A program made the translations under genes and the position numbers. The notes beneath the pieces were generated by a model. That model ran no database searches. It saw nothing but the letters and a program-made list of their open reading frames with translations, and was not told where the DNA came from. A DNA stretch of 33,859 nucleotides from Gracilibacteraceae bacterium (lineage in GTDB: Bacteria > Bacillota > Desulfitobacteriia > Desulfitobacteriales > Syntrophobotulaceae): positions 1 through 33,859 of the forward strand of contig JAISWK010000020.1 in assembly GCA_031270805.1 (NCBI GenBank), read 5' to 3'. Shown here in pieces: positions 15,430 through 33,858 of this stretch; position 1 is the first letter of the stretch; each line of letters opens with the position of its first letter.

Positions 15430-15445
15430 TGGCACGCTTGTTGCA
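15430..15445 (+). promoter_or_regulatory. sigma-54 (-24/-12) promoter of the catabolic operon
   Basis: TGGCACGCTTGTTGCA matches the RpoN consensus TGGCAC-R-N4-TTGCW at every defined position, with the correct spacing of the GG and GC elements. Expected start near 15456, about 24 bases before ATG 15480. A sigma-54 activator gene (27647) lies in the same cluster. Confidence 0.9.
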
Positions 15446-15479: not shown

Positions 15480-16400
15480 ATGAAATATCGCAAACTCGGA
15501 AAAACCGGACTCGACGTTTCGGTAGTGGGCGTTGGAACCTGGCAGTATTGCGGCGATTGGGGCCGATCCTTTACCGCCCGGGAAGTGGGCGGCATCCTCG
15601 GCTCGGCGCAGGCCAGCGGGATTAACCTAGTAGATACGGCTGAATGTTACGGCGATCACCGCTCGGAACAGCTGATCGGCGAGGCGTTGCCGGGGCGGCG
15701 CGCCGACTGGCTTATTGCCACCAAATTCGGGCACGCCTACGACCGGAGCGGCGCCAAGCACCAGGATTTTTCAGCGGCCGGAGTACGGGAACAACTGGCC
15801 GCTTCTCTCAAAGCGCTACGCACCGACTACGTGGATATTTTGCTTTTTCATTCCGGCGACAACGAGCAGCTGGAAAACCAAGATCTTTGGGCCATGCTCT
15901 CCAGGCAGCGGGAAGCCGGTCTGATCCGCTATTTGGGCCTGTCTTTGCATCCCGATATCCAAAATAACGTATATCAAACCGCTAAGGCCGCCGAATACGG
16001 CTTGGATGTGATTGAGGTGCTATACAACCGGTTGGAGCGCACAGCCGAAGACGCCGTACTGCCCATGTGCCGGGAATACGGACTAGGCGTACTCAGCCGA
16101 GTACCGCTCTCCAGCGGTTATTTAAGCGGCAAATACAGCCCGGACAGCGTCTTTGCGTCGGATGATGTACGAGAAAGCTATCATAATCGGGATGAGCGCC
16201 GGGAAAAACTGCTGCGGGCGGAAAAAATAAAGCGCTACGAAGTACCCGCAGGTGTCGTAATGGCGCAGTGGGCTATCGCCTGGCCCCTGCGCAACCCGAC
16301 GGTATGTTCGGTAATCGGCGGCTATAAAAACGAAGCCCAGTTGCAAGATGCCGTTCAGGCCGCAGCGATGGCCGCAGAAAGTGGTGAAGGCTTTGATTGA
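15480..16400 (+). CDS. aldo/keto reductase
   Basis: 306 residues from ATG 15480, with GAGGAGG seven bases upstream; the ORF-track start at 15438 lies upstream of the predicted transcription start. NAD(P)H-dependent carbonyl reductase of the TIM-barrel AKR family. It begins MKYRKLGKTGLDVSVVGVG and has the catalytic set Asp-Tyr in NLVDTAECYG, Lys in IATKFG and His in LLFHSGD; the nucleotide site includes RVPLSSGYLSGKY and the late VIGGYKNEAQL. First gene of the sigma-54 operon, so probably a pathway step that interconverts an aldehyde or ketone with an alcohol. Its end overlaps the probable fdrA start. Confidence 0.93.
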   Translation: MKYRKLGKTGLDVSVVGVGTWQYCGDWGRSFTAREVGGILGSAQASGINLVDTAECYGDHRSEQLIGEALPGRRADWLIATKFGHAYDRSGAKHQDFSAAGVREQLAASLKALRTDYVDILLFHSGDNEQLENQDLWAMLSRQREAGLIRYLGLSLHPDIQNNVYQTAKAAEYGLDVIEVLYNRLERTAEDAVLPMCREYGLGVLSRVPLSSGYLSGKYSPDSVFASDDVRESYHNRDERREKLLRAEKIKRYEVPAGVVMAQWAIAWPLRNPTVCSVIGGYKNEAQLQDAVQAAAMAAESGEGFD

Positions 16401-17944: not shown

Positions 17945-19357
17945 ATGGAGGACAGGCGGATTATTCACGGCCCGATAGTGGCAGTTAATCTGGGATTGCA
18001 GGGTTTTGCCGACGGACTGGCGGAACAAGGGGTACGCACGTTGCAAATCGACTGGCGACCGCCGGTTGACCCGCAGCTGAGTACAGCTTGGCGGCGTTTT
18101 CAGGATCGAGGGAGAGGGCGCCAAACCGAACAGGCCAATCTTGAGGCTTTAGCGCGGCTGCAGGCCGCCGAGCCTTATTGGGTCGGCGTCAAACGCGTAA
18201 AAGACGCGGTTCCCGGGATTAAATCCCATATGATTTTGCATGCCGGACCGCCCATCGCCTGGGAAGACATGATTCCCATCCAGCGCCAAGGCGTTATCGG
18301 CGGGATATTGCATGAAAAATTGGCCGTCACGAAAGAAGAAGCCGCCGGTTTGGCGGAGAGCGGCGAGATCGAACTGGCTTCGGCCAACGATTTTTTCTGT
18401 GTCGGCGCCGGCGCCGGCATAATCACCCCCAATATGGTGATCAATGTCAGCCGCGACCGGAAAACCGGCTTGGAAGGCTACTGCATTCCCTTTGAAGGTC
18501 GGGTGGGGCTGGGAGTCTGGGGCGTTTACAACACGGAAGTCGAAGCCAATCTGCAGATTATTGAGAATGAGTTTGCGCCGGCGGTGGACGCGGCGTTGAG
18601 CCATTGCGGCGGCATCAATATCAAGAGCATCATCGCCCGCAGTATGCAGATGAATGACGAGATCCACACCAGGCAGACCGCCGCCGGTTTAATTCTGGTC
18701 AGTGAAATTGTGTCGCCGCTATTGGATCTGGGTTTGGATTACGAATTAGTCAAAAAATGCGTCGCGCAATTTACCGCCACTGAGCGCTGGTTTCACCCGC
18801 TGGGCATGTCCGGCGGCATGGCGGCGGCCCGCAGCATTAAAGGTCTGGAGTATTGCTCGGTGGTCACGTCCATCGCCCAAAACGGCGTCGAAACCGGGAT
18901 CAAAGTCGCTGCACTGGGTGAGCGGTGGTTCAAAGCGCCGGCGCCTCGCTTTGTCGGCCAGTATTTCTCCAGCGAGTGGGGCCCCGACGACGCAACGCCT
19001 TACATGGGCGACAGTACTGTGACCGAGGTGGTCGGTATGGGGGCGTTCGCGGCGGCGGCGGCGCCGGCGGTTTTACGTCTCCGGGGCGGCGGTTATCGCG
19101 AAGCAATCGCCCAAAGTGAGGAATTGAGCAATATCACCGTCGGCCGTAACGCTAACTACCCCATTCCTTTGCTGGATTTTCAAGGCCCGCCTATGGGCAT
19201 TGATATAGTCAAAGTGGCGGAGACCGGCATTACCCCAATCTGTCACGGCGGGATTATATCAAAAACCGGCGGCCAGATCGGCGCCGGCGCGGCTCGTTAT
19301 CCGATTGAACACTATTTGGCGGCTACCGCCGCTTACCTGGAAAAATACACGGAGTAA
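17945..19357 (+). CDS. DUF1116 family protein (YlbE/YahG/AllG-like)
   Basis: 470 residues; AAAGGAG lies eight bases before ATG 17945. The family is recognised from GLQGFADGLAEQGV with DWRPPV near residue 38, ILHAGPPIAWEDM (residues 97-109), the HCGGINIKSIIARSMQMNDEIHTR-type region with its conserved His, Cys, Asn and Asp/Glu, FFLAV-equivalent MSGGMAAARSI, and the late CHGGIISKTGGQIGAG. It is cytoplasmic, without membrane segments. DUF1116 proteins are almost always found with FdrA and DUF2877 as subunits of an acyl (carbamoyl) transferase; the chemical role of each subunit is not settled from sequence. Confidence 0.9.
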   Translation: MEDRRIIHGPIVAVNLGLQGFADGLAEQGVRTLQIDWRPPVDPQLSTAWRRFQDRGRGRQTEQANLEALARLQAAEPYWVGVKRVKDAVPGIKSHMILHAGPPIAWEDMIPIQRQGVIGGILHEKLAVTKEEAAGLAESGEIELASANDFFCVGAGAGIITPNMVINVSRDRKTGLEGYCIPFEGRVGLGVWGVYNTEVEANLQIIENEFAPAVDAALSHCGGINIKSIIARSMQMNDEIHTRQTAAGLILVSEIVSPLLDLGLDYELVKKCVAQFTATERWFHPLGMSGGMAAARSIKGLEYCSVVTSIAQNGVETGIKVAALGERWFKAPAPRFVGQYFSSEWGPDDATPYMGDSTVTEVVGMGAFAAAAAPAVLRLRGGGYREAIAQSEELSNITVGRNANYPIPLLDFQGPPMGIDIVKVAETGITPICHGGIISKTGGQIGAGAARYPIEHYLAATAAYLEKYTE

Positions 19358-19369
19358 CGGGGGAGTAAG

Positions 19370-21007
19370 GTGAAAAACTGGGCAACTATCGAAACCGATG
19401 TCCTGGTCATTGGCGCGGGACTGACCGGGCTTCGGGCAGCGTCCGCCGCTTCCCGGCTGGGGGCTTCTGTTTTGCTGGTGGGAAAATGCAAGAGCGCCTC
19501 ACCGGATATCATGGGTTTTAACGCGGCGGTGCAGGCTGAGGACAGCACGGTCTGCTATTATCGGGATGTCCGGGTAAGCGGCGCCTGGCTGAACGATCGG
19601 GCGATCAGCGAACAATTGGTGGGCGGCGTCACTGCGGAAATCCGTCTCCTGGAGGAACTGGGTCTTGGCTTCGATAAAAACGCGGATGGCAGCTATCATA
19701 CGATTATGACCTTGGGTTGCACCTACCCGCGCCTGGTACACGCCGGCGCGCTGACCGGGGTGAAAGCCATGCGGCTTTTAGAAGCCGACGCCGCCCGCCT
19801 TGGGGCCGCCCGGCGAGATATGATGGTGTTGGAACTATTGCTCGACGGCTCCAATCTGGCCGGCGCCGTGGCCTTTGATCTGCCGAGCGGCGAGTATCGG
19901 CTGATTCGGACCAAAGCGGCGGTACTCGCGGCCGGGGGCTGCGGGCGTATTTACCGGCGCACAACCTACCCGCCGGGTATCGGCGGCGACAGTTACGCAT
20001 TGGCTTACCGGGCCGGCGCCCGCTTGACCGATATGGAGTTTCAACAGTACGAGCCTTGTTGTTTTGTTTATCCGGAAGAATTGGCCGGCAATCTCCTGCC
20101 GACGACTTTGCTCAGGGCCGGAGCGCGTCTGCAGAACAATCGGGGTGAAGATGTGCTGGAGCGCTACGGTATGCGGATCGACAGCCTGCAGAAAGGCGAA
20201 CTGGCTCAGGCCATGGCCGCTGAGATTGCAGCCGGGCGGGGCACGGAACATGGCGGTTTATACTATGATGTATCAATTCTGCCCCGAGATCTGCTGGTCA
20301 GAGATCACAGCATCTTCTATGAAACACCGCTGAAAGCGGGGATTGATCTGACGACGGCATTGGCGGAAGTAGCGCCCTGCGCTCACACCTGCCTGGGCGG
20401 CGTCCAAATTACCGCCGATACGGACACCGGCATCAACGGTCTGTACGCCGCTGGCGAAGCGGTGGGTGGTGTTCATGGCGCCAATCGCATCGGCGGTTGT
20501 GCCGGCGCCGAAACTCTGGTCTTCGGGGGGCTGGCCGGCGCCCGGGCCGCCCGCCGGGCCGCAACAGACGGCTTTGTCTGCTCGCCGGAAAAACTGACCG
20601 GATTAGCCAAGGGCTCAACGGATGAAGCCGAGCGGCTTTTGGGGCGATCCGTCGGCGAAGCGCCCGGTGCGATCCACCGGGAATTGGGGGACATCATGAC
20701 GGAACACGCCGGGTTAGTGCGTTCACAGTCGGGGTTGGAACAAGCGGCGGTCGCGGTCGCCGGCCTGGAAGATCGTCTGGCGCATAGCCGGCTCGGCAGT
20801 CGGGCTGATATCCCACTCTATCACAGTTGCGTCAATATGTTGACGGTGGCGCAAATGCAGGTTGCATCCTCTCACTATCGCAAAAAAAGCCTTGGTGTAT
20901 ATTCTCGCGCTGATTCAGTGGACGCCGCCGCCGCAACGCGCTATAACACTGTGTTACAGCGGCAGGATGGCGTCATGCGGGTTACAACCGTGAGCCGCTT
21001 CGATTAA
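19370..21007 (+). CDS. FAD-dependent fumarate reductase/succinate dehydrogenase-like flavoprotein
   Basis: 545 residues from GTG 19370 (binding site GGGGGAG). It has the dinucleotide-binding motif LVIGAGLTGLRAA (residues 12-24), LAAGGCGRIYRRTTYPPGIGGDSYALAYRAGA, the substrate-region AHTCLGGVQI that corresponds to AHYTMGGI in FrdA, and GANRIGGCAGAETLVFGG near the C-terminal FAD loop. No iron-sulfur subunit, heme domain or membrane anchor is encoded nearby, so it acts as a soluble oxidoreductase or uses a separate carrier. Probably oxidises or reduces a carboxylic-acid intermediate of this pathway. The substrate cannot be named; other members of the superfamily include L-aspartate oxidase and urocanate reductase. 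Confidence 0.88.
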   Translation: MKNWATIETDVLVIGAGLTGLRAASAASRLGASVLLVGKCKSASPDIMGFNAAVQAEDSTVCYYRDVRVSGAWLNDRAISEQLVGGVTAEIRLLEELGLGFDKNADGSYHTIMTLGCTYPRLVHAGALTGVKAMRLLEADAARLGAARRDMMVLELLLDGSNLAGAVAFDLPSGEYRLIRTKAAVLAAGGCGRIYRRTTYPPGIGGDSYALAYRAGARLTDMEFQQYEPCCFVYPEELAGNLLPTTLLRAGARLQNNRGEDVLERYGMRIDSLQKGELAQAMAAEIAAGRGTEHGGLYYDVSILPRDLLVRDHSIFYETPLKAGIDLTTALAEVAPCAHTCLGGVQITADTDTGINGLYAAGEAVGGVHGANRIGGCAGAETLVFGGLAGARAARRAATDGFVCSPEKLTGLAKGSTDEAERLLGRSVGEAPGAIHRELGDIMTEHAGLVRSQSGLEQAAVAVAGLEDRLAHSRLGSRADIPLYHSCVNMLTVAQMQVASSHYRKKSLGVYSRADSVDAAAATRYNTVLQRQDGVMRVTTVSRFD

Positions 21008-21024
21008 TGCCGGAAGGTGAAGGT

Positions 21025-22512
21025 ATGAGGAAAAAAGCACTGCGCTTTAACGACCTGGATAATGTGGCGGTAGTCTTGGACGGACTGCAGGCCGGCGATC
21101 AAATACTGGTGAACGATCAACCGGCGGCGATAAGCGCCGGCGAGGGCGTGCCGGTCGGGCATAAAATCGCGTTGGCGGCTATTGCGGCCGGTGAACCGGT
21201 GTGTAAATACGGTCATCTGATCGGTTTGGCTACTGAGCATATTCCGGCTGGCGGCTATGTACACAGCCACAATCTGCGCGAACCCGAAGTCCAACGGCAG
21301 GAACTGGCCCTGGGCGGGTCGGCAAAGATCGCCGCCGAGTGCAATCTGACAGAGTTACCGCAGCTATCCGGCTATCGGCGGTGCAACGGCCAACTGGGTT
21401 TTCGCAATCATTTGCTGATCCTTTCGACCGTGGTTTGCGCCAACCAGATTGTCCAGGACTACGGCGCCGCTCATCGGGATGCTGTTACGATTACCAACCC
21501 CAGCGGCTGTATCATCCTGCCGGAAGAAGCCGCCCAGCTCAGGGCGATGCTGCTGGGCCTGGCCCGCAACCCCAATATCGGAGCGGTAATTTTTGTCGGT
21601 CTGGGCTGTGAGAGTACCGAAGCGGAGTGGTTTTACGAACAGGTGCAGGCCGAGAAGCCGGCGGCTTTTATCCGGCAGCAGTCCGAACATTCTTCCGGGC
21701 AGGCATACGCCAAACTGGAGACCATGGCTGCGGATCTGCAGCAAAAACTGGCGGCCCAGCGGCGTGAGCCGGCCAGCTTGGCCGACGTCCGGCTGGGTAC
21801 GGAGTGCGGCGGTTCCGACTGGACCACAGCTATCGTATCCAACCCGGCGATCGGTTATGTTTCCGATCTGGTGGTAAAAAACGGCGGTATTTCTTTACTG
21901 GGCGAAACCGTCGGCTGGTTCGGAGGCGAAGCCGCGTTGCTCAAGCAGGCGCGCAATCCCCAGGTGGCCGGCGATATTGTCAGTTTACTGGATCGGGTTT
22001 ATCACCGGGCGCGGGCTATGGGCCGCCGTATCGAAGAAGGCAATCCGTCGCCAGGCAATCGAGCCGGAGGGCTAAGCACGCTGGCGGAAAAAGCGCTGGG
22101 CAACGTGCGGAAAGGCGGTACGGCGCCGATTGAGGGTGTGTTGGCCGTGGCTGAACAGCCGGCGGGTAAAGGTTTGTATGTTCTGGATAACGCCGGGTTG
22201 GATCCGGTGTCGCTTCTGCAGCTGACCGCATCTTCCGCCAATATTATACTTTTCAGTACCGGCCGCGGCACGCCAGTGGGGACGCCGCTGGCTCCAGCCA
22301 TCAAACTGACCGGCTCGCCGGAGGCGGTCGCCTGTTTCGGCGTTCATCTGGACGTAGATTTATCCCCGGTGATAACCGGCGGAATGAGTATGGCGGCGGC
22401 GGGGCAAGCGCTATTTGAGACAATGCTGGCTGTGGCGGAAGGCCGCCTGACGGCGGCGGAGCGTTTTGGCCACCGGGAGTACGCCTTTCCCTTGATGATG
22501 GGCGTTTTATAG
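21025..22512 (+). CDS. UxaA family (altronate/galactarate-type) dehydratase
   Basis: About 495 residues. I prefer ATG 21025 (MRKKALRFND) because GGAAGG is correctly spaced before it; ATG 21007 overlaps the previous stop as TAATG and is an alternative. Full-length architecture: N-terminal SAF domain with GHKIALAAIAAGEPVCKYGHLIG and YVHSHNL, then the UxaA core with GYRRCNGQLGFRNHLLILSTVVCAN, LGTECGGSDWTTAIVSNPAIG, LLGETVGWFGGEAAL and the C-terminal segment IILFSTGRGTPVGTPLAPAIKLTG. Relatives dehydrate D-altronate, D-galactarate or remove sulfite from sulfolactate. It is not a split SuyAB type. Likely acts on a hydroxy acid brought in by the TRAP system. Confidence 0.9.
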   Translation: MRKKALRFNDLDNVAVVLDGLQAGDQILVNDQPAAISAGEGVPVGHKIALAAIAAGEPVCKYGHLIGLATEHIPAGGYVHSHNLREPEVQRQELALGGSAKIAAECNLTELPQLSGYRRCNGQLGFRNHLLILSTVVCANQIVQDYGAAHRDAVTITNPSGCIILPEEAAQLRAMLLGLARNPNIGAVIFVGLGCESTEAEWFYEQVQAEKPAAFIRQQSEHSSGQAYAKLETMAADLQQKLAAQRREPASLADVRLGTECGGSDWTTAIVSNPAIGYVSDLVVKNGGISLLGETVGWFGGEAALLKQARNPQVAGDIVSLLDRVYHRARAMGRRIEEGNPSPGNRAGGLSTLAEKALGNVRKGGTAPIEGVLAVAEQPAGKGLYVLDNAGLDPVSLLQLTASSANIILFSTGRGTPVGTPLAPAIKLTGSPEAVACFGVHLDVDLSPVITGGMSMAAAGQALFETMLAVAEGRLTAAERFGHREYAFPLMMGVL

Positions 22513-22571: not shown

Positions 22572-24008
22572 ATGAAGATGTTGATCAACGGACAACGCAC
22601 GGGAGCCTCGGACGGCGGCGTCCTGGAAGTGTGCAATCCGGCCACCGGCGCTCTGTTGGACACTGTACCGGCGGCGACCGCCGCTGACCTGGAGCGAGCG
22701 CTGACGGCGGCGCAAAAAGGCTGGCCCGCCTGGGCCGGTACGCCGCTGTTCGAACGGGGGGCGATCCTGCGGCGTTTTGTCCGCAGCATCGACGAACACA
22801 ACGAAGAACTGAGTCTGTTGCTGTGCCGGGAAATGGGGAAACCGATCAGCGAGGCCCGTAATGATTTCGGCAGCGTCAAGCATTTGTTTAACGGTTTTGT
22901 CGAGGCGGCCAACCAATTGACCGGCATGACTATGCCCCTGGGTGTGCAAGAAGGCCGGGAGAAGGATTTTGAGCTGGCGATCCGGGAGCCTTTGGGCGTC
23001 GTCGCCTGCATCATTCCGTTTAACGCACCCTTGGTGCTTTTTAGTCATAAAGTAGCACCGGCTTTGATCGCCGGCAACGCAGTGATCGTCAAACCGGCCA
23101 GCGACGATCCGCTGGTGCTGCTGCGCCTGGGTGAATTGCTCTGGGAAGCCGGCGTTCCCGGCGACGTGTTCCAGATGATCACAGGCAGCGGCGCCCAGAT
23201 CGGCAGTCTCCTGGCCGGCGATCCGCGTGTCGCCAAAGTCAGTTTTACCGGCAGCACTGAGGTCGGTCTGGCGATAGCTCGGGCAGCGGCGGCTAACATG
23301 GGGCATACCGGACTGGAACTCGGCGGCAACGCACCTTTTGTCGTCATGGCCGACGCTGATATCGACCGGGCGGCGGCGGAGGCGGCGGCAGGTCGGGCTA
23401 CCTATGTGACCGGTCAGATTTGCAATGTCGCCAAGCGCTTCCTGATACACCGTTCCGTCAAGGCGGCTTTCACCGCTAATTTGATCGATCGGTTGCAAAA
23501 AATTATCATCGGTGATCCGGAAGATCCGGCGACGCAAATGGGCACCTTGATCAGCGAGAGCGCCGCCCGGGAAGTAGAACGCCAGGTGGCGCACACGGTC
23601 AGTCAGGGCGCGAAACTTATTTACGGTGGGGTGCGCAGCGGCGCTTATTACACGCCGGCGGTACTGGACGAAGTAACCGGTGCTATGGACATTGCCCATG
23701 ATATGGAAGTTTTTGGGCCGGTATTTCCGCTGCTCACCTTTGATACACTGGAAGAAGCCATTGATCTGAGCAACGATACAATCTTCGGGCTGGGGGCTGG
23801 CATCATGACGGGCGATATGAGTATCGCCCTGCGATTTGCCATGGCTGTCCAGGCCGGCAGTGTGATTATCAATGGGCAGAGTTTTTACCGCAGTTTTATG
23901 ATGCCCTTCGGCGGGTACAAACAGAGCGGCGGCGGTCGGGAGGGACTCACGGTCTCGCTCCAGGAAGTAACCCAACTGAAGAGCATTGTCTTCAAAAATG
24001 TGTTATAG
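22572..24008 (+). CDS. NAD(P)-dependent aldehyde dehydrogenase
   Basis: 478 residues, usual length for the non-acylating ALDH superfamily. Oxidises an aldehyde to an acid through a thioester. Catalytic residues are present: Asn151 in IIPFNAPL, Lys174 in VKPASDDP, Glu249 in LELGGNAPF and Cys284 in TGQICNVAKR; FTGSTEVG and EVFGPVFPLL mark the cofactor site. The combination resembles succinate- or lactaldehyde-type enzymes more than the CoA-acylating ones. It sits between the dehydratase and the transporter, so it probably handles a semialdehyde or the aldehyde released by the DeoC-like aldolase (inference). Binding site AAAGGATG precedes ATG 22572. Confidence 0.94.
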   Translation: MKMLINGQRTGASDGGVLEVCNPATGALLDTVPAATAADLERALTAAQKGWPAWAGTPLFERGAILRRFVRSIDEHNEELSLLLCREMGKPISEARNDFGSVKHLFNGFVEAANQLTGMTMPLGVQEGREKDFELAIREPLGVVACIIPFNAPLVLFSHKVAPALIAGNAVIVKPASDDPLVLLRLGELLWEAGVPGDVFQMITGSGAQIGSLLAGDPRVAKVSFTGSTEVGLAIARAAAANMGHTGLELGGNAPFVVMADADIDRAAAEAAAGRATYVTGQICNVAKRFLIHRSVKAAFTANLIDRLQKIIIGDPEDPATQMGTLISESAAREVERQVAHTVSQGAKLIYGGVRSGAYYTPAVLDEVTGAMDIAHDMEVFGPVFPLLTFDTLEEAIDLSNDTIFGLGAGIMTGDMSIALRFAMAVQAGSVIINGQSFYRSFMMPFGGYKQSGGGREGLTVSLQEVTQLKSIVFKNVL

Positions 24009-24022
24009 CGGGGAGGCGCGCC

Positions 24023-24523
24023 ATGCTTAGCAAGCTGACCAATAGAGCGATTGGACTCCTGGAGAGAATAGTGCTAGCCATGCTGGCGGTTGCGGTGCTG
24101 GTAATCGCCCTGCAGGTCGTCATGCGCTACGTCGTGGGTCAGCCCTTAGGCTGGACCGAACAAATGGCGCGCTATCTGTTCATTTGGATGGTAATGCTCG
24201 GGATTCCGATCATGTTTCACCGTAAGATTTTCATGGCGTTCGACTTGCTTTTGCAAGCTCTGCCCAAGATCGTTCAGCTGGTAATGAACTATGTGATCAA
24301 GCTGTCAATTTGCTTCTTTGCCGCTTACTGGCTCTGGTACAGCCTGCAGCTCATCGCCGCCACCTGGGGCAAGCTGACCAGCGGCATCAAGATGCCTCTG
24401 GCGGTCATATACAGCGCCCAGCCGACTTGCGCGTTTTTCCTGTTGTTGGTTATCCTGACCCAGATCGCGGAAGACATAGCGGCTGCAAAACACCGGGCGA
24501 AAGGAGGCGGCGCCGCGTGCTGA
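24023..24523 (+). CDS. dctQ: TRAP transporter small membrane subunit, DctQ type
   Basis: 166 residues with four hydrophobic segments and the family pattern QVVMRYVVGQPLGWTEQMARYLFIWMVMLG. It joins the large DctM subunit in the inner membrane to form the sodium- or proton-coupled carrier fed by the DctP binding protein. GGGGAGG lies before ATG 24023, 14 bases after the aldehyde dehydrogenase. Its last codons overlap the start of dctM. Confidence 0.93.
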   Translation: MLSKLTNRAIGLLERIVLAMLAVAVLVIALQVVMRYVVGQPLGWTEQMARYLFIWMVMLGIPIMFHRKIFMAFDLLLQALPKIVQLVMNYVIKLSICFFAAYWLWYSLQLIAATWGKLTSGIKMPLAVIYSAQPTCAFFLLLVILTQIAEDIAAAKHRAKGGGAAC

Positions 24524-25788
24524 TTTTTATAGCTGTCTGCTTTTTTGTCACGCTGTTTCTGGGTTTTCCTATTGCCATCGCCATGGGCCTTACTTCGGTG
24601 TTGGCCCTGATCGCCGATCCGAACCTGCCCAGCCTGGTGATGGCGCAAAAACTCTTTACAGCGGCGGATTCTTTCGCTCTGATGGCAATTCCATTTTTCA
24701 TGCTGGCGGGCAAAATCATGGAAGCCACGGGCATCACCGATGAATTGGTAAATTTTGCCAAAACATTGGTGGGCCACATTCGCGGCGGCCTGGGGCACAC
24801 GGTCGTCTTAGCCGGTACGCTGATGGCCGGGATCTCCGGTTCGCAAAACGCCGACGCCTCGGCCATTGGCGCCATCACTTTGCCGGCCTTGCGGCGGGAC
24901 GGCTATGAAGACGGCTTCGCGGTCAGCATCGTCGCTGCGGCCGGCGGCCTGGGTCCGATCATTCCGCCCAGTATTATCATGATCATTTACGCGACGCTGA
25001 CCAATATGAACGTGGGGAAGCTATTCCTGGCCGGTTATATCCCGGGCCTGATGCTGGCTCTCGGCTACATGGCGATCATCGCCGTTTATGCCCGAATGCA
25101 CAATCTGCCGCGCAGCCGCTTCGTCGGTTGGCAGGCAGTGGGGCGGGGTTTTCTCAAAGCAATCTGGGCGCTATTCATGCCGGCGATCATTATTGTCGGC
25201 ATCCTGAGCGGCGTTTTCACCGCCACCGAGTCCGGCGTGATCGCAGTTCTCTACGGCCTGGTCTATGGTATCGTTACTCGCACGATCAACTTGGCCAAAC
25301 TCCGGGAATGCTTGCTGGAAGCCGTAGTTGTGACCGCGATCCCCATGGCGATCATCATCATGGCCAACCTGCTCGGCTACCTACTGACCCGGCAGAATCT
25401 GGCAAATATCGTGGCGGAGTTTGTCACCGGCATCGTCGCCGGGCCTTACTCATTTTATTTTGTCCTGATGGCGATCCTGCTTTTTGCCGGAATGTTTATT
25501 GACGGTACGGCGACATTGCTGCTGTTAGTGCCGGTTTTGCTGCCCATGGTGGACATTTTGGATCTAAACCCCTTGCATTTTGCCCTGATCTTCCTTTTGT
25601 CACTGCAGACTGCCGGCCTGACGCCGCCGGTGGGTCCGCTCCTGTTCATCGTCGCCGGCATCGGTCAGGTTCCGCTGAAAAAGTGCGTGCTGCCGGTGCT
25701 TCCCTTCATCTGCATTATGCTTTTCTGCGTCGTTTTGATCATCTTTTTCCCGGGGATCGTCACCTTTATTCCGGGTTTGATCAAATAG
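24517..25788 (+). CDS. dctM: TRAP transporter large membrane subunit, DctM type
   Basis: 423 residues from GTG 24517, chosen because AAAGGAGG is nine bases upstream and the product then begins with a membrane helix (MLIFIAVCFFVTLFLGFPIAIAMG) as in the family; the ORF-track start at 24310 is inside dctQ. Eleven to twelve hydrophobic segments, with the signature AGTLMAGISGSQNADASAIGAI, GGLGPIIPPSIIMIIYA and TAGLTPPVGPLLF. It overlaps dctQ by seven bases. Confidence 0.95.
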   Translation: MLIFIAVCFFVTLFLGFPIAIAMGLTSVLALIADPNLPSLVMAQKLFTAADSFALMAIPFFMLAGKIMEATGITDELVNFAKTLVGHIRGGLGHTVVLAGTLMAGISGSQNADASAIGAITLPALRRDGYEDGFAVSIVAAAGGLGPIIPPSIIMIIYATLTNMNVGKLFLAGYIPGLMLALGYMAIIAVYARMHNLPRSRFVGWQAVGRGFLKAIWALFMPAIIIVGILSGVFTATESGVIAVLYGLVYGIVTRTINLAKLRECLLEAVVVTAIPMAIIIMANLLGYLLTRQNLANIVAEFVTGIVAGPYSFYFVLMAILLFAGMFIDGTATLLLLVPVLLPMVDILDLNPLHFALIFLLSLQTAGLTPPVGPLLFIVAGIGQVPLKKCVLPVLPFICIMLFCVVLIIFFPGIVTFIPGLIK

Positions 25789-25863
25789 TGCAGCAACGCC
25801 TGCCGGCGCAGTTAATTATAAAAGTTGACACTTAAGGTACGTGAACTCGAAAGGAGAATGTAA

Positions 25864-26904
25864 ATGCCAAGTAAAAAGTTACTCGCGGTATTGCTCAGTC
25901 TGTGCTTGGCGGCGGTGTTGGCGACCGGTTGCGGTCAGTCCCCCGCCGAGCAACCGGCGGCCACCGGGCCGGGACCGGCGTCGACGCCTGCGGAAAAGGT
26001 GGTGCTGAAGATCGGCTATGGCGGCTCCCCCGATATGACGGCGCCCAGTTATGTTCAGATCTGGGCTGATCGAGTGTCGGAGGCGACGGAGGGGCGGATT
26101 TCTTTTGAGATCTATCCCTCGGGACAACTCGGCACTCTGGTGGAAATGCTGGAAGCCTGTGAACTGGGCACTTTGGACGTGACTTTGAACGACCCCTCGC
26201 TGATGGAAACTTACCTGCCGGAGATCGCTCTGCTTTCCCTGCCGTTTATCATTAAGGACTATGCCCACATGGATACGGTCTTTAACGGCGAAGTCGGCGA
26301 CACAATGATCGCCCGCCTGGATGAACAGTCAAATCTGCATGTGATGGGCTGGGTTTGGAACGGTTTTCGCAGCATTTGCGCCAAGAAACCGCTCCGGACG
26401 CTGGCGGACTGCGAAAATCTGGTTATCCGCTCCCCGGAGAGCGATATCTATGTGAATACCTTCCGCCTGCTGGGCATGAGCCCGACGCCGGTACCATTGA
26501 ACGAGACATTCACCGCTATGCAAACCGGTGTGGTGGAAGCGGTGGACAGCCCGATTGAAAACTTTGTCAAAATGAGCTTTTATGAATTGGGCAAGAACAT
26601 TTTAATTTCCAATCACCTGGCCTCTTCTTTGAGCCTGATCTTTAATCAGGACAAATGGGATTCCTTCAGCGCGGAGGATCAAAAACTAATGCTGGACATC
26701 TATGACGAAGTCTTTGTCCAATGCAACCAGGACGTGATTGCCGCAGAACAGACTTATTACGATCAGCTGGTTGATCTGGGCTGCGCCATGACCGAGTTTG
26801 AAAACCGGCAGGAGGTTGTGAACCGGTTCACCGATTACTGGACGCAGTTTGCTCAAACCAATAATTGCCAGGATTTACTGCAACAGATCATTGACTCGAT
26901 GTGA
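25864..26904 (+). CDS. dctP: TRAP transporter substrate-binding lipoprotein, DctP type
   Basis: 346 residues with a lipoprotein signal peptide; the lipobox LATGC places the lipidated Cys at residue 23, followed by a Pro/Ala-rich linker. The mature domain starts KVVLKIGYGGSPD and shows the family's EIYPSGQLGTLVEMLEACELGTLDV, the carboxylate-binding Arg in NLVIRSPESDIY, and TAMQTGVVEAVDSPIENF. DctP proteins bind organic acids through that Arg, so the pathway substrate is likely a carboxylate. Placed after the membrane subunits, with a 75-base gap and a strong AAAGGAG site that may favour high expression. Confidence 0.94.
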   Translation: MPSKKLLAVLLSLCLAAVLATGCGQSPAEQPAATGPGPASTPAEKVVLKIGYGGSPDMTAPSYVQIWADRVSEATEGRISFEIYPSGQLGTLVEMLEACELGTLDVTLNDPSLMETYLPEIALLSLPFIIKDYAHMDTVFNGEVGDTMIARLDEQSNLHVMGWVWNGFRSICAKKPLRTLADCENLVIRSPESDIYVNTFRLLGMSPTPVPLNETFTAMQTGVVEAVDSPIENFVKMSFYELGKNILISNHLASSLSLIFNQDKWDSFSAEDQKLMLDIYDEVFVQCNQDVIAAEQTYYDQLVDLGCAMTEFENRQEVVNRFTDYWTQFAQTNNCQDLLQQIIDSM

Positions 26905-26917
26905 AGGGAGAGAAGTT

Positions 26918-27616
26918 ATGGAAAAAGAGAAAATCGCCGCCATTGTGAAACGGATTGACCACACGATCTTGGCGCCGGTCACAACCTGGGCGGAGATTAA
27001 AGCTCTGCTGGATGAGGCTATTGCGTACCAGGTCGCTTCGGTGGCTCTCCCGATGTCCTATATCAAAGATGCAGCGGATTACGCGCAAGGCCGGGTGGTA
27101 GTGCAGTGCCCCATCGGTTATCCTGCCGGCTATACGACGACCGCAGTGAAAGTATTTGAAATTGAGGACGCCAAGCGGAACGGGGCGACTGAGTTTGATA
27201 TGGTGATCAACCTGGGCTGGGTCAAGGATAAGCGCTGGCAGGATTTAGAGAACGAGATCCGGGCCTGCAAAGCCGCCGCCGGCGATTTGATTTTGAAAGT
27301 CATCGTGGAAGCCGGACTTTTGACGGAAGAAGAAAAAGTCAAAATGTGCGAGATCATCACCACCGCCGGCGCGGATTTCATCAAGACCGCCACCGGATAC
27401 AACACTACCTGGGAAGGATATAACAAAGGCGTCGCCACGGTTGAGGACGTGGAACTCTTCAAGCGGCATTTGGGTCCGGGTGTCAGGATAAAAGCCGCCG
27501 GTGGTATGTATACCCTGGAAGACGCTTATAAATTCGTGGCTCTGGGCGCCGAACGGCTGGGATCGAAGGCGCTTTTGGGCATCGCCCGAGAAGAGGGTTT
27601 TCAGCCCGAGACTTGA
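26918..27616 (+). CDS. deoC: DeoC-like class I aldolase with altered phosphate-binding residues
   Basis: 232 residues from ATG 26918 (AAGGGAG upstream); the ORF-track start at 26849 lies inside dctP. The deoxyribose-phosphate aldolase core is kept: Asp94 in DMVINLG, Schiff-base Lys156 in FIKTATGY and Lys192 in IKAAGG. The phosphate site is not: E. coli GGVRT is GGMYT here (Arg207 to Tyr198), and the closing GASSLL is GSKALL (two Ser to Lys217 and Ala218). There is also an insertion after KTATGY (NTTWEGYNKG). I infer a class I retro-aldol enzyme whose substrate may be unphosphorylated, perhaps with a carboxylate held by Lys217, and not a housekeeping DeoC. No other deoxynucleoside genes are near. 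Confidence 0.85.
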   Translation: MEKEKIAAIVKRIDHTILAPVTTWAEIKALLDEAIAYQVASVALPMSYIKDAADYAQGRVVVQCPIGYPAGYTTTAVKVFEIEDAKRNGATEFDMVINLGWVKDKRWQDLENEIRACKAAAGDLILKVIVEAGLLTEEEKVKMCEIITTAGADFIKTATGYNTTWEGYNKGVATVEDVELFKRHLGPGVRIKAAGGMYTLEDAYKFVALGAERLGSKALLGIAREEGFQPET

Positions 27617-27646: not shown

Positions 27647-29566
27647 ATGAAAGAAATCGGCATTATCGTAAACAGTACAGACATGTTCAGACTGGCCGCA
27701 GAAGCAGCCGATCCGGAACATGTTGAGGTCGTGCTGACCCACACTTATGAAGAAAGTTTGAGCTGGGCCCGCAGCATGGAGAAAAGCGGCTTTCGTCTGC
27801 TGATTTCACGCGGCGGGCACAGTTCCCGTTTGCGCGAGGCCGGACTGAGTCTCCCGGTGGTGGACATCCCGTTTACCGGTAATAATGTGGTGGCTCTGCT
27901 GCTGCAGGCGAAAAAACAATACCCCGCTTTCGGCGTGGTCGGCAACCGTTCGCTGCTGCAAATCGCCCAGGCCATGGAGGACTCCATCGGCTGCGGTGCG
28001 CGTTACTACGAAGTCGAAGGCTGGGGCGACTTTGAACTGCGGATTGCCGAGGCCAAGGCCGCTGGTCTGGAGGCGATTGTCGGCGGTTATGACGCCACAA
28101 GTTTTGCGACCAGGGCCGGATTGACCGGGTTGTGCGTCACCAGCAACGCCTACGAAATCCGCACCGCTTTGCAGGAAGCCGCGAAAGTCCTGGCTATTCT
28201 CGATGAGGAAAAACAAAGAAGCGCGGTGTTTCGCGCAACTCTGGACGCGATTCACGAAGGCATCATCTTGCTGGACAGTCGGGGGTCGGTGATCCATTTC
28301 AACCGGACTGCGGAAAAACTGCTGAGCTTGGATGCACCATTGGCGATTGGCGCGCCTTTGGCCGATCCGGCCCTGAATAAAAAGATCTGGGGCGTCTTGC
28401 GAGACGGGGCGCCGTTGGCCGATGATGTGGGCATGGCCCAGGACTACCGTTACACCAGCAGCATCTCGCCCATCCGGGTGGATGGGCAGAACACCGGCGC
28501 CGTGGTGGTTTTGCAGGAAGTGGGCTATGTCCGGAAGATTGAGCAGATCGTGCGCCGCAAATCCGCAGACCGCGGGTTGGTGGCCCGGAATACTTTCGCC
28601 AATATTCAAGGCGGCAGCAGCAGGGCGATGCGTGAAGTGATCCGCATTGCCAAGCACTACAGCCAAATCGACTCGACGGTGCTGATCAACGGCGAGAGCG
28701 GCGCCGGTAAGGAGCTTTTCGCTCAGAGTATTCATAACCATAGTCCCAGAAGTCAAGAAGCCTTTGTGGCGGTGAATTGCGCTTCGATCCCGGCCAACCT
28801 GCTGGAATCCGAGTTGTTCGGGTACGCAGAGGGCGCCTTTACCGGAGCGAAAAAAGGCGGCAAAATCGGCCTGTTTGAGTTGGCTCACGGCGGAACGATC
28901 TTTCTGGACGAGATCGCTGAAATCAGCCGGGATATGCAGCCGCGACTGCTGCGGGTGCTTGAGGAACGCCAAATCATGCGGATCGGAGCCGATCGGGTTA
29001 TTCCGGTCAATACCCGGGTTATCGCGGCTACCAATCAGAATTTATTGAGTTTGGTGAATGAAGGCAGGTTCCGTTCGGATTTGTATTACCGGCTGAACGT
29101 ACTGGCTTTGAACCTTCCGCCCCTGCGGGAGCGGCGCGAGGACACGGCGGCGCTGCTTGAGTATTTTCTCCGCCAGTTCACCCAAGGCAGCTTTGGGCAA
29201 GTGCAGCTCAAAGAGGATGGGCTGGCGGTTTTGCTGGCCTATCCCTGGCCGGGCAATGTGCGGGAGCTGAAAAATACCATGGAGCGGCTGGCGGTGGTGT
29301 ACGGCGATCGGCAACCTGTGGGACGGGCCGAGGCGCTCGCTTGTTTGGACAACACTGGCGCGCCGGCCAAGGCGGAACGGCAGCCGGCTCAGGAAAGCAC
29401 GGCCTTGGGCGCGCTGAAAAAACAGCTGGAAGAACAGGCGATTCGCCAGGCCATGCAAGAAGCAGGCGGCAACAAAGCTAAAGCCGCCCGAGAGCTGGGG
29501 ATCACCCGCGTCACATTGTATAAAAAGCTCCGCCAGCTGGAACTTAACTTATTAATTAATAACTGA
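27647..29566 (+). CDS. sigma-54-dependent transcriptional activator with PrpR-type sensor domain
   Basis: 639 residues. N-terminal PrpR_N-like domain (about 1-180; LLISRGGHSSRLREAG, VVDIPFTGNNVVALLL), a PAS domain (about 195-300; ILLDSRGSVIHFNRTAEKLL), the AAA+ domain with Walker A GESGAGKE near 350, the sigma-54-contact loop GAFTGA near 395, Walker B GGTIFLDEIAE, and a Fis-type helix-turn-helix (about 608-630, NKAKAARELGITRVTLYKKL). PrpR_N domains bind small metabolites such as 2-methylcitrate in the propionate regulator. It follows the aldolase gene by 30 bases and most likely acts on the promoter at 15430. Confidence 0.94.
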   Translation: MKEIGIIVNSTDMFRLAAEAADPEHVEVVLTHTYEESLSWARSMEKSGFRLLISRGGHSSRLREAGLSLPVVDIPFTGNNVVALLLQAKKQYPAFGVVGNRSLLQIAQAMEDSIGCGARYYEVEGWGDFELRIAEAKAAGLEAIVGGYDATSFATRAGLTGLCVTSNAYEIRTALQEAAKVLAILDEEKQRSAVFRATLDAIHEGIILLDSRGSVIHFNRTAEKLLSLDAPLAIGAPLADPALNKKIWGVLRDGAPLADDVGMAQDYRYTSSISPIRVDGQNTGAVVVLQEVGYVRKIEQIVRRKSADRGLVARNTFANIQGGSSRAMREVIRIAKHYSQIDSTVLINGESGAGKELFAQSIHNHSPRSQEAFVAVNCASIPANLLESELFGYAEGAFTGAKKGGKIGLFELAHGGTIFLDEIAEISRDMQPRLLRVLEERQIMRIGADRVIPVNTRVIAATNQNLLSLVNEGRFRSDLYYRLNVLALNLPPLRERREDTAALLEYFLRQFTQGSFGQVQLKEDGLAVLLAYPWPGNVRELKNTMERLAVVYGDRQPVGRAEALACLDNTGAPAKAERQPAQESTALGALKKQLEEQAIRQAMQEAGGNKAKAARELGITRVTLYKKLRQLELNLLINN

Positions 29567-30500
29567 AACAAAGAGCGGCGCTGAGCATACCCAGGCAAAA
29601 ATCGGCGCCGGAAGATGCGCCAAAAGCTAAAATTCCCCGAACCTTGGCCATGAGAACCGCTTCGTCGCCGTCGATCAGCGCCGGCAGCAGTTCCCAGACC
29701 GGGTCGGCAAATTCCAGGCGGACGGCGCAAGCAAGATAAAAAACGCTGGATTCGGTGGTTTGCCGCCGGGCAGGGCCGGCGCAGTAATCAGCCAGTATCC
29801 GGAAAAAAAGCCGGGTCGTCAGCGCAGAGGCAGCGCAGAGGCCCAGCCAGGCGGCCAGACCGCAGATCATATCGTCGGCGGCGGGGGTGAGTCCGGGGCC
29901 GCGCCCGGCAAAAGCCTGAAGCGCCGCCGTGGCTCGCTTGTCGTCCAATGCTTTGACCGCCAGCAGCAAATCGTAAAAATGCCGGTAAAAATAGCGACCG
30001 TATGACGGGTCGGCAAACGGCGGTTCGCCCCGGGCGGCGAGAAAAGCCACCCAGTCGGACGCCTTATGTGAGGCGGCGGCCGGCAGCTGAGAGATGAGCG
30101 CGCCGGCTAAAGCCCGGCCGGCGGCCTGGCGCTGCTCGACAGCCAGATCACGGCCCCTGCGGCGGAGATCGCGGTGGGCGGCGCCCGCCAGCCGGCAGAC
30201 ATACTTGGCGCCGGGAATATGCAAATTACCGCCGGCGCTATAGGCGAGCTGGCCGGTCGCCAGTCCGATCCGCCGGCAGTCCGCTTCCGCCGGCAGGTCA
30301 GTGCGCACGCCGCCGGGCAGCAACCGGGTTCGGGCCGTGAAAACCGTCACCAGGCGCTCGTCGGGATAGAGCAGATTAAAACAACGCCGATAGATACCGG
30401 CCACGGCGCCCCGGCACTCCGGGTGCAGCGCGGCGGCAGCCGAGCCGCTGATTTCCAGGGCGGAGCAACGCGTGTTTATTGCTGTCCGGTTTATATCCAT
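29556..30500 (-). CDS. DUF2877 family protein (YlbF/YahE/AllH-like)
   Basis: 314 residues. The family signature is clear: GRGPGLTPAADDMICGLAAW in the second half and FGASSGADFCLGM at the C-terminus, after an N-terminal part with CFNLLYPDERLVTVFT. It is the third component of the FdrA/DUF1116/DUF2877 complex reported in E. coli as oxamate carbamoyltransferase. Unlike its partners it lies on the minus strand; its stop overlaps the activator gene by 11 bases, and it is divergent from the kinase gene 51 bases away. No clear ribosome binding site precedes ATG 30500; a TTGCGG-17-TAAAAT pair just upstream could drive it, giving an almost leaderless message (weak). Confidence 0.88.
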   Translation of the reverse strand: MDINRTAINTRCSALEISGSAAAALHPECRGAVAGIYRRCFNLLYPDERLVTVFTARTRLLPGGVRTDLPAEADCRRIGLATGQLAYSAGGNLHIPGAKYVCRLAGAAHRDLRRRGRDLAVEQRQAAGRALAGALISQLPAAASHKASDWVAFLAARGEPPFADPSYGRYFYRHFYDLLLAVKALDDKRATAALQAFAGRGPGLTPAADDMICGLAAWLGLCAASALTTRLFFRILADYCAGPARRQTTESSVFYLACAVRLEFADPVWELLPALIDGDEAVLMAKVRGILAFGASSGADFCLGMLSAALCFSY

Positions 30501-30551: not shown

Positions 30552-31760
30552 ATGTCCATATTGGTTTGTAATGTCGGCAGCACCTCGCTGAAATTCAAAC
30601 TGTTCGTCGCCTCCGGCCGGACCGTACCGGCTGAGGGGCGGATCGAGCGGGTGGGCAGCGCCGGCGACGCCGTTTTTACCTATAGTCAGCACTTGAACGG
30701 TATCAGCGAAGAACTGACCGGCCTGAGCGTGCCGGACTACACCACCGGCATCGAACTCTTTCTCCGCTATCTGACCGATCCGGTTAAAGGCGCGATTTCG
30801 GATATCGCCCAAGTGGAGGCCATCGGGTTCAAAACGGTGGCGGCTAAAGGCTATTACGGCGTACACGAGCTGACCGATGAAGTTCTCACCGCCATGGCCG
30901 CCTTTAATCAGGTGGCGCCGGCCCATAATCCACCCTATATCGCGGCGATCCAAAAATTTCGGACTTTGCTGCCCGGTAAACTCTGTGTAGGAGTTTTTGA
31001 AACGGCGTTTCACGCCTCAATTCCTTTGGAACGAAAATTATACGCGCTGCCGTATGAATGGTATGAAAAATACGGTATTCAGCGGCTGGGTTACCACGGT
31101 GCATCCCACAACTATATTGCCCGCCGGGTGCAGGAATTGGCCGGCGCAAATTATCGGCTGATCTCATGCCATTTGGGCGGCAGCGGCTCGCTCTGCGCCA
31201 TTGAAAATGGCCGTTCGACGGACACCAGCTTCGGTTTTTCGCCGCAGTCCGGAATACCGCACGCTAATCGCGCCGGCGACCTGGACGCTTATATCTTTCC
31301 GTATTTACAAAGCGAGGGATTGACACCGGAGGAGATCCGCACGGGCCTCAGCCAAAATGGCGGTTTGCTGGGATTATCCGGGGTGAGCGGCGACATGCGC
31401 GATATTGAGGCGGCGGCGGCAGCCGGCAACCGACGCGCCCGCCTGGCCATCGACGTATACTGCAGCGCCGTGACCCGCTATATCGGTGCTTTTTACGCCG
31501 AGCTGGGCGGGCTGGATTACCTGGCCTTTACCGGTGGCATCGGTGAAAACTCCGCGCTTGTCCGCGGGCAGATTTGCGCCCGACTGGAACATATGGGAAT
31601 TCGCTTGAACGCGGAGCGCAACCGGAACGGCGCCGGGGAGCGATTCATTTCCGACGCCGGTTCTCCGGTGCGGGTGCTAGTCATTCCCGCTGACGAGGAA
31701 GCAGGAATTGCGGCTGCTATCATGCAAATTACACAGGGGGATGGTTCTATTTTGTCTTAG
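30552..31760 (+). CDS. acetate-kinase-family acyl-phosphate kinase with altered substrate pocket
   Basis: 402 residues from ATG 30552, with AAAGGGG upstream; the ORF-track start at 30174 lies in antisense DUF2877 sequence. The AckA fold is unmistakable: CNVGSTSLKF at 6-15, VAPAHNPPYI, YALPYEWYEKYGIQRLGYHGASHNY-type region, CHLGGSGS, TGGIGENSALVR and IPADEE. ATP-side residues Asn7, Ser10, Ser12, Lys14, His182, His207, Arg240 and Glu382 are kept. On the acyl side, compared with Methanosarcina AckA, Arg91 is Lys94, Leu122 is Ala124, Asp148 is Glu150, Asn211 is Gly210, and HRVVHGG is FKTVAAK. I infer an acyl phosphate other than acetyl phosphate, formed by the FdrA complex. The symbol ackA would mislead. 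Confidence 0.88.
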   Translation: MSILVCNVGSTSLKFKLFVASGRTVPAEGRIERVGSAGDAVFTYSQHLNGISEELTGLSVPDYTTGIELFLRYLTDPVKGAISDIAQVEAIGFKTVAAKGYYGVHELTDEVLTAMAAFNQVAPAHNPPYIAAIQKFRTLLPGKLCVGVFETAFHASIPLERKLYALPYEWYEKYGIQRLGYHGASHNYIARRVQELAGANYRLISCHLGGSGSLCAIENGRSTDTSFGFSPQSGIPHANRAGDLDAYIFPYLQSEGLTPEEIRTGLSQNGGLLGLSGVSGDMRDIEAAAAAGNRRARLAIDVYCSAVTRYIGAFYAELGGLDYLAFTGGIGENSALVRGQICARLEHMGIRLNAERNRNGAGERFISDAGSPVRVLVIPADEEAGIAAAIMQITQGDGSILS

Positions 31761-32195: not shown

Positions 32196-32843
32196 ATGGG
32201 ACTGATCGGATATGGCGAACACATCGCCGACACTGTCAAAAATATGCCTTACGAGTCTGCGATCCAAACCGAGGACATTGCGGAAAGGCTTGCGGAAAAA
32301 TTCGCGCTCCCATACGATCAGGCCAAAGCCCTGACAAATGTCAAGCTAAAACGGATGGCGGACAAAGGCGAAATTGAACGACTGCAAAAAGGAGTATACC
32401 GCCATGTAAAGCAAACCGTTTTTGGAAGAGCCACACCCAGCCTCGACGAAGTGGTAGCAAAAACGCTAACGGTACAGAATGGTACGAAAATAGGATACGA
32501 GTCCGGAGCGTTTCTGCTTAACAAGCTAGGACTGACAACCCTGATTCCCCGTGATATCGAAATCACGACAAACCGCTATGGAGCAAAGCTGCCCGAAGGC
32601 TGCCATATCAAGGTGCAAAAACCGGCTGTGGTCGTGACAGATGAGAACTGGAAACACCTCCAGTTCATTGATGTGGTGGCTGAGCTGCCACATGCTTACG
32701 TTGATGCGGAAAAGCCGGAGTGGTTGCTGGTAGAACATGCAAAAAAGCAGCACCTAGACAGCCTTGAACTAATTTTTATAGCTCGGCGGTATTACCCGGC
32801 AAAAATCCTGCCGCGACTCATTGATTTGCTTATGGAGGTGTAA
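32196..32843 (+). CDS. type IV toxin-antitoxin antitoxin, AbiEi/DUF6088-like
   Basis: 215 residues, ATG 32196 with GAGGTG six bases upstream. The N-terminal part (about 15-75) is a winged-helix-like region: AERLAEKFALPYDQAKALTNVKLKRMADKGEIERLQKGVY pattern, ending in the KGVYRHVK wing typical of AbiEi. The middle has IGYESGAFLLNKLGL and RDIEITTNRYG, as in the AbiEi C-terminal domain. It should bind the operator upstream and neutralise the kinase/nucleotidyltransferase toxin encoded eight bases downstream. GC content is clearly lower than in the catabolic genes, which fits horizontal acquisition. Confidence 0.85.
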   Translation: MGLIGYGEHIADTVKNMPYESAIQTEDIAERLAEKFALPYDQAKALTNVKLKRMADKGEIERLQKGVYRHVKQTVFGRATPSLDEVVAKTLTVQNGTKIGYESGAFLLNKLGLTTLIPRDIEITTNRYGAKLPEGCHIKVQKPAVVVTDENWKHLQFIDVVAELPHAYVDAEKPEWLLVEHAKKQHLDSLELIFIARRYYPAKILPRLIDLLMEV

Positions 32844-32850
32844 GTGTAAG

Positions 32851-33858
32851 ATGAATCTACATCAAGACAGAGATGCGTTTAAAGCCCTGCTTTCTGATGT
32901 TAGCCAAAGGATCAGTATACGAAGCGACATTATTGAAAAGGATTATTATCTGACATTGCTTCTATGGGAACTGGCAGAAAAGCAGGATACGCTTCCCGCA
33001 TACTTTAAAGGCGGCACCGCTTTGTATAAAGCAATAGGCCGCATGAAGCGCTTTTCCGAAGATATTGATCTTACGGTTGAAATCCATGACTGCTCAAAAA
33101 GTCAAGGAAAAAAGCGCTTGGAGGTAGCGGCAAGCGGCTACCAGACACTCTCGAGAACTTCGGAAAAAGAGAGAGAAAGCAACCAAAGGGGCAGCATCAC
33201 CAGCGTATATGAGTACAACCCCGTTATCACTGTCGACGCAGATGATGAACTTCAGCGGTTTGGTTATGTAAAAGTTGAGGCAACGTCCTTCACCGTCAGC
33301 GAACCCACTGAATCCATTCAAGTTTCGCCTCTGCTCTATTCGGAAGCAACCTCCGCGCAGCACCGGATCCTTACCGAAAATTATGGGGTCAAGCCGTTTG
33401 CAATCAACACCATAAAAATGGAGCGGATCTTTGCAGACAAAATACTGGCTGCCGAGTTTTACTACCAGCGGAATATGCTGTTTGATACTGCAAAGCATCT
33501 TTATGATCTTACCACGATGATGGAGCAAAACAGAATACGGTATCTTCTTTCTGCGCCGGATGATCTGGTAAAGATGCTTACTTATAAGCGCCAGGAAGAA
33601 AATAACCGGATCGGCAGCGACCTTGCGGACAAACCATTTTCCGACTTTAAGCTATATCAAGCAGTTGGCGTTAATGCTGAACTGTCTGCGGCCTTTTATA
33701 AAATGCAGGACATCTATGTGTTTTCACAAACTGATATCCTCTCAATGACACAATTGTCTGCGAGCATGGCGGCACTTTATCAAACCCTGCTTAAGCTGGA
33801 TGAAGATCTCAAAATGACACAGACTACCAGCGAAGGCACAGAGCAGAAGATGCTCTAA
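32851..33858 (+). CDS. nucleotidyltransferase toxin, AbiEii/AbiGii family
   Basis: 335 residues from ATG 32851, preceded by GGAGGTG in the end of the antitoxin gene; the TTG at 32821 in the ORF track is less likely. The nucleotidyltransferase motif is present: YFKGGTALYKAIGRMKRFSE (Gly-Gly-Thr at 54-56) followed by DIDLT with Asp71 and Asp73 as metal ligands, then later IKMERIFADKILAAEFYYQR and DTAKHLYDLTTM, which match the AbiEii family (Lys and Asp motifs III/IV). Toxins of this group transfer nucleotides to cellular targets, in one case tRNA. Complete; the stop ends one base before the window end. Low GC, same unit as the antitoxin. Confidence 0.9.
   Translation: MNLHQDRDAFKALLSDVSQRISIRSDIIEKDYYLTLLLWELAEKQDTLPAYFKGGTALYKAIGRMKRFSEDIDLTVEIHDCSKSQGKKRLEVAASGYQTLSRTSEKERESNQRGSITSVYEYNPVITVDADDELQRFGYVKVEATSFTVSEPTESIQVSPLLYSEATSAQHRILTENYGVKPFAINTIKMERIFADKILAAEFYYQRNMLFDTAKHLYDLTTMMEQNRIRYLLSAPDDLVKMLTYKRQEENNRIGSDLADKPFSDFKLYQAVGVNAELSAAFYKMQDIYVFSQTDILSMTQLSASMAALYQTLLKLDEDLKMTQTTSEGTEQKML

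Follow-up and report, generated by a model that had tools for sequence, protein, structure and literature searches.

An acetokinase-family kinase with a remodelled acyl side is linked to a divergent AllFGH branch and may harvest ATP from sugar-acid breakdown

The window analysed here, a 33,859-nucleotide stretch of contig JAISWK010000020.1 from a Gracilibacteraceae bacterium, encodes an acetokinase-family kinase whose start lies 51 bp from a divergent gene for an AllH-like subunit, the sole AllH of the genome (Table 1). On the other side of AllH is a run of genes that includes AllF- and AllG-like subunits, a flavoprotein, a dehydratase-like protein and a tripartite transporter. Homologues of all three AllFGH subunits are thus present in the window, with the AllG and AllH models scoring above cut-off and the FdrA model just below; these homologues had been missed in a preliminary description of the kinase. 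Neither a carbamate kinase nor allantoin or ureido genes occur among the annotated genes of the run. There is likewise no FAH-family acylpyruvate hydrolase gene beside the window AllFG genes: the only FAH-family gene in the genome (101–844, + strand) is about 14.6 kb from the AllFG run, matches just positions 2–147 of the 214-position model before continuing into unrelated sequence, and looks truncated. Just 3′ of the kinase (32196–33858, + strand) a DUF6088/AbiEi-like gene is followed by an AbiEii nucleotidyltransferase gene, a type IV toxin–antitoxin pair.

Table 1 Features of the window around the kinase gene
Feature	Position	Strand	Basis
Sigma-54 promoter-like site TGGCACGCTTGTTGCA	15430–15445	+	Single match in window, 0.11 expected
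Aldo/keto reductase, first gene of run	15480–16400	+	Profiles
AllF (FdrA)-like subunit	16384–17931, start approximate (GTG 16381/16384)	+	PRK06091 426 bits (cut-off 433); 3dmy FdrA E 2.6e-68
AllG (YlbE)-like subunit, divergent branch	17945–19357	+	PF06545 179 bits; 3clq E 5.8e-64; AllG tree
FrdA/TfrA-like FAD flavoprotein; putative 2-keto-3-deoxy-acid dehydrogenase	19370–21007	+	Profiles
UxaA/GarD-family (SAF + GD_AH) sugar-acid dehydratase-like protein	21007–22512	+	6u7l galactarate dehydratase E 1.7e-54; under galactarate dehydratase cut-off
Aldehyde dehydrogenase	22572–24008	+	Profiles
TRAP transporter DctQ-DctM-DctP	24023–26904 (24023–24523, 24517–25788, 25864–26904)	+	DctM and DctP by profile; DctQ by position and length
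DeoC-family aldolase	26918–27616	+	Profile
PrpR-type sigma-54 activator	27647–29566	+	Profile
AllH-like subunit	29556–30500	−	PF11392 73.6 bits
Acetokinase-family acyl-phosphate kinase, K91/E148/G211/S212 subfamily	30552–31760	+	402 aa; profiles, alignment, model

The AllFG run has the sigma-54 promoter-like site ahead of its first gene and the gene for the PrpR-type activator at its end. Comparable sites lie 5′ of AllF at a second locus (L045) and 5′ of the operon at a third (L056), so the run is probably under the control of this activator. L045 additionally encodes a sigma-54 factor. Because the opposite-strand AllH gene intervenes, the window kinase and AllFG are probably carried on separate transcripts.

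The kinase reading frame opens with an ATG that has a Shine–Dalgarno-like AAAGGGG immediately 5′ of it. The protein is a member of the acetokinase family (PF00871, 331.9 bits across 385 residues, cut-off 22), passes the TIGR00016 ackA model (328.9 bits, cut-off 293.4) and aligns with Methanosarcina thermophila AckA (1g99/1tuu) at 37% identity (E about 1e-85) without register shift. The propionate kinases TdcD and PduW and butyrate kinase are paralogues of the same superfamily in which the acyl pocket also differs, but the window kinase falls far below their equivalog cut-offs (PRK12379, 251 of 580 bits; PRK12397, 319 of 659 bits; TIGR02707, 53 of 289). The preliminary description had proposed structure prediction, and an AlphaFold2 model built from 24 subfamily members (pLDDT 88.9, pTM 0.87) agrees along its entire length with crystal structures of acetate kinase (1g99, TM 0.91, rmsd 2.6) and resembles AckA far more than butyrate kinase. 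The model is poor at residues 236–242, a stretch that contains the conserved R240.

Scanning a single genome of each species recovered 80 relatives at 47–66% identity, a subfamily whose large size had also escaped the preliminary description. Nearly all of their hosts are metagenome-assembled genomes from gut Clostridia or related groups; two are Latescibacteria. The paralogue phylogeny that had been suggested separates these kinases from 31 canonical AckAs with an SH-aLRT support of 100; the relatives' genomes supplied 30 of these AckAs and the genome of the window the remaining one. A PF00871 search finds canonical AckA in 35 of 38 subfamily-bearing genomes, and the window's own genome has one (G000:C50, 522.7 bits). 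The subfamily is therefore a second, distinct, non-housekeeping acyl-phosphate kinase, and we reject a housekeeping acetate kinase as the simple answer to the identity of the window gene.

The window kinase shares with M. thermophila AckA its fold, length and ATP-side residues, retaining (M. thermophila numbering throughout, unless stated) N7, S10, S12, K14, H123, H180, H208, R241, D283, R285 and E384, of which H180, H208, R241 and E384 correspond to window H182, H207, R240 and E383. All of the phosphoryl-transfer and ATP-side residues for which the preliminary description had claimed counterparts (N7, S10, S12, K14, H180, H208, R241 and E384) are found in the PDB alignments. The changes it had listed on the acyl side (R91K, L122A, D148E, N211G and FKTVAAK in place of HRVVHGG) are likewise seen residue for residue, at window K94, A124, E150 and G210, and are joined by G212S (window S211). 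That the Arg and Asp might instead be present but shifted can be rejected, because neither the PDB alignments nor the 81 subfamily rows have a gap at these two sites.

These substitutions are fixed in the subfamily: K91/E148/G211/S212 occurs in 81 of 81 sequences (the 80 relatives and the window), R/D/N/G in 31 of 31 canonical AckAs, and the R91, D148 and N211 of characterised acetate kinases in none of the 81. By contrast, position 122 is variable (A 53, L 15, V 12, S 1), making L122A a trait of many members rather than a hallmark. Further differences from AckA, not listed in the preliminary description, are L233Q/E (81 of 81), G96K/R (79 of 81), P232L (76 of 81; the window retains P), F179Y (74 of 81) and H94L (73 of 81; the window has A). 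L122A and N211G open the predicted pocket, and the subfamily-common P232L and F179Y fill it; the new polar residues contributed by G96K/R and L233Q/E near the acyl side hint more strongly at a polar acyl group. Position 233 is Q in most of the subfamily and E in 22 members, mainly of a group with a neighbouring GHL6 gene, which have L or V at position 122; this combination may mark a second acyl specificity.

The window gene is thus a real, widely conserved acetate kinase variant. The invariance of the ATP-side residues, His180 and Arg241, the subfamily-wide fixation of the substitutions and the match of the model to acetate kinase support the view of a kinase that looks functional and whose acyl side is remodelled, much as the preliminary description had it. 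Its further suggestion of a larger or differently charged substrate does not follow, because R→K and D→E both retain charge.

AllF, AllG and AllH are all needed for oxamic transcarbamylase, which catalyses oxalurate + Pi ↔ oxamate + carbamoyl phosphate (PMC11326118), and the partner of E. coli AllFGH is the carbamate kinase AllK, which makes ATP from carbamoyl phosphate (PMC11326118; PMC9843812). AllF/AllG lie beside the subfamily kinase at 23 of 80 loci, as well as in the window, and AllH directly follows the kinase at two further loci (L053 and L054); AllH adjoins the kinase at L053, L054, L075, L077 and L197. The linkage is found in several subclades of the kinase tree. In the genomes of L053 and L054 (G314 and G315) the sole AllH is the one beside the kinase and the flavoprotein–AllF–AllG genes are elsewhere, accompanied in G315 by IlvD and an aldolase. 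This split arrangement is otherwise hard to explain and argues that the kinase and AllFGH work together.

A phylum sample of 300 genomes contained 44 with AllG, and among the 40 AllG loci fetched a carbamate kinase is nearby in 21 and AllH in 34, whereas the subfamily kinase is nearby in none; conversely, none of the 80 subfamily-kinase loci has a carbamate kinase. In the AllG tree, a branch with an SH-aLRT support of 100 divides the 20 kinase-linked AllGs from the carbamate-kinase type. The kinase-linked AllGs retain over 40 shared invariant residues and show few fixed differences, such as H-G for N-T near the C terminus. An AllF–AllG fusion that is not beside the kinase (L195:2529-5540, a single frame of 1003 residues with a lactate/glycolate permease-family gene after it) also lies on the side opposite the kinase-linked AllGs. 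Across the two AllFGH branches there is therefore a partner swap between carbamate kinase and the subfamily kinase. Our literature search found no report pairing this kinase type with AllFGH. Compared with E. coli AllFGH and AllK, the window has homologues of all three subunits and a kinase predicted to handle acyl or carbamoyl phosphate, but this kinase belongs to another superfamily, its AllG lies across a supported branch and no allantoin or purine genes are near.

The genes around the kinase-linked AllFG genes are sugar-acid genes, not purine genes. The flavoprotein is beside AllFG also in L056, L075, L077, L093, L193 and L194. Three loci (L075, L077 and L093) combine an SDR, the flavoprotein, an IlvD/EDD dehydratase, AllF, AllG, a KDPG-type aldolase, PfkB, the kinase and AllH; L056 has AllH, transketolase-like halves, the flavoprotein, a GD_AH dehydratase, AllF, AllG and the kinase; and L194 has an aldolase, a metallo-β-lactamase-fold protein, a ROK kinase, an SDR, IlvD, the flavoprotein, AllF and AllG. 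A sugar-acid dehydratase of known family is accordingly present in the window and L056 (GD_AH) and in L075, L077, L093 and L194 (IlvD/EDD). The GHL6 group (L070, L085, L100) carries a GHL6 protein, AllG, AllF, the kinase, a GarR-type reductase, glycerate 2-kinase, a 2-hydroxyacid dehydrogenase and an MFS_2 transporter; at many loci of this group neither AllH nor a dehydratase is seen, but L197 does have AllH. LrgAB genes are near the kinase in L060, L082, L089 and L104. Three of the five genomes with the pathway genes have no FAH-family gene.

The AllFGH pairing does not explain the whole subfamily but only the window and roughly one locus in three. No All gene is present on the fetched stretch, in some cases a short contig, at 55 of 80 kinase loci, and AllG is absent from 43 of 49 searched genomes of such loci, many but not all of them incomplete metagenome-assembled genomes. 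The kinase must therefore also serve other acyl phosphates, or the pairing is secondary.

We consider the odds about even that the kinase works in the direction ADP + acyl phosphate → ATP + acid, with the acyl phosphate in the window coming from the divergent AllFGH. Among possible sources in the window, AllFGH is the most likely. Because an acetokinase stands in the place of carbamate kinase, it is probably an ordinary acyl group that is transferred and, by the gene neighbourhood, probably a hydroxyacyl group.

We infer the chemistry, the part played by the flavoprotein and the identity of the acyl group from the gene content. The TRAP transporter would take up a sugar acid, which the UxaA/GarD-type enzyme would dehydrate to a 2-keto-3-deoxy acid. 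The flavoprotein would then oxidize C4 to give a 2,4-diketo acid (R-CO-CH2-CO-COO−). Fumarate reductase, which the flavoprotein resembles, usually reduces, and the flavoprotein is not known to act as a 4-dehydrogenase; the SDRs of L077 and L194 are further candidates for this role. Replacing the NH of oxalurate by CH2 gives its carbon analogue, a 2,4-diketo-3-deoxy acid, whose phosphorolysis would therefore yield pyruvate and an acyl phosphate. AllFGH would carry out this C–C cleavage, releasing glycoloyl, lactoyl or glyceroyl phosphate, from which the kinase would make ATP. Glycolate, glycerate or lactate may be the products, given the glycerate kinase and LrgAB genes near the kinase and the lactate/glycolate permease beside the AllF–AllG fusion. 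In its full form, in which phosphate cleaves the C–C bond of a 2,4-diketo sugar acid on the second AllFGH branch to give pyruvate (or hydroxypyruvate) and a hydroxyacyl phosphate that a dedicated acetokinase paralogue uses to make ATP, this scheme is tentative and possible rather than probable.

The scheme would be a version of Route III that saves energy. In Route III a 2-keto-3-deoxy acid is converted to a 2,4-diketo acid that is hydrolysed to pyruvate and glycolate or lactate, with a UxaA/GarD-family D-arabinonate dehydratase taking part (PMC6336799). As in the Route III of Herbaspirillum huttiense (PMC6336799), a dehydratase of that family would lead to the 2-keto-3-deoxy acid, and the 2,4-diketo intermediate and pyruvate are predicted here. 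Unlike there, AllFGH-like phosphorolysis and the kinase would replace the FAH-family hydrolase, which cuts the same bond and wastes its energy, and the flavoprotein would replace the SDR dehydrogenase. In anaerobic bacteria, mostly of the gut, the kinase and its AllFGH partner may thus gain ATP from the breakdown of sugar acids. If so, an ATP-yielding step would be added to a pathway now drawn as wasteful hydrolysis, a recently identified three-subunit phosphorolytic enzyme would be extended from C–N to C–C bonds, anaerobic gut bacteria would possess an undescribed form of substrate-level phosphorylation, and many 'acetate kinase' annotations in gut Clostridia would cover another function. Even with the chemistry wrong, annotators can use the K91/E148/G211/S212 signature to tell such paralogues apart from true acetate kinases.

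Other kinase loci have different neighbours. At eight of them (L035, L036, L038, L039, L042, L043, L044 and L106) the kinase ends an acetoin-dehydrogenase-type operon (E1a, E1b, an NAD-kinase-like protein, E2 and E3), and these loci also carry a Nudix gene and DUF6506- and Lin0512-family genes. In the Latescibacteria (L110 and L112), whose genomes have no AllG, the kinase overlaps an MFS transporter gene of the same family in both; an MR/MLE enolase-superfamily gene overlaps the other end of the kinase in L112 and lies 2.6 kb on in L110. Ldh_2 is near the kinase in L053. The cultured Lachnoclostridium sp. An131 has a stand-alone copy. Stand-alone kinase copies with glycogen genes next to them (the L059/L069 group) or with cell-wall or sporulation genes (other loci) were taken to have these neighbours by chance, and the ProA-like aldehyde dehydrogenase gene adjoining the kinase in L066, L067 and L071 probably belongs, judged by gene lengths only, to proline synthesis.

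The acetoin dehydrogenase contexts of the L035–L044 group, the transporter–kinase–MR/MLE run of L112 with the same families in L110, Ldh_2 in L053, LrgAB in L060 and the stand-alone copies would all fit a kinase that serves broader hydroxy-acid and sugar-acid metabolism, with AllFGH one supplier of several and the diketo-acid reaction wrong in detail. This is rather unlikely, as it leaves unexplained why the kinase-linked AllGs separate from carbamate-kinase-linked AllGs as one clade. We also think it unlikely, and slightly more so, that the gene product is an alternative acetate or propionate kinase with different kinetics and only incidental proximity to AllFGH. It does pass the ackA model, share the acetate kinase fold and lack AllFGH at most loci, yet the loss of R91, D148 and N211 is fixed across 81 sequences, nearly all of the same genomes have a canonical AckA, and the linkage to AllF, AllG or AllH recurs in several subclades. 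A recruited carbamate kinase, with the AllFGH homologue still freeing carbamoyl phosphate from a ureido compound, would account for the same three-subunit partner as in E. coli, carbamate being near acetate in size and shape and the K/E/G changes possibly suiting an amide, but it is improbable because the kinase-linked loci carry sugar-acid dehydratases, aldolases and glycerate kinase and lack the ureido-compound genes present at canonical AllFGH loci.

The canonical AllFGH loci carry cyclases, xanthine dehydrogenase, an AtzD/barbiturase-type amidohydrolase and carbamate kinase. At two loci (L143 and L147) a pair of tandem AllG genes lies next to a single AllF, AllH and an AtzD/barbiturase-type amidohydrolase gene.
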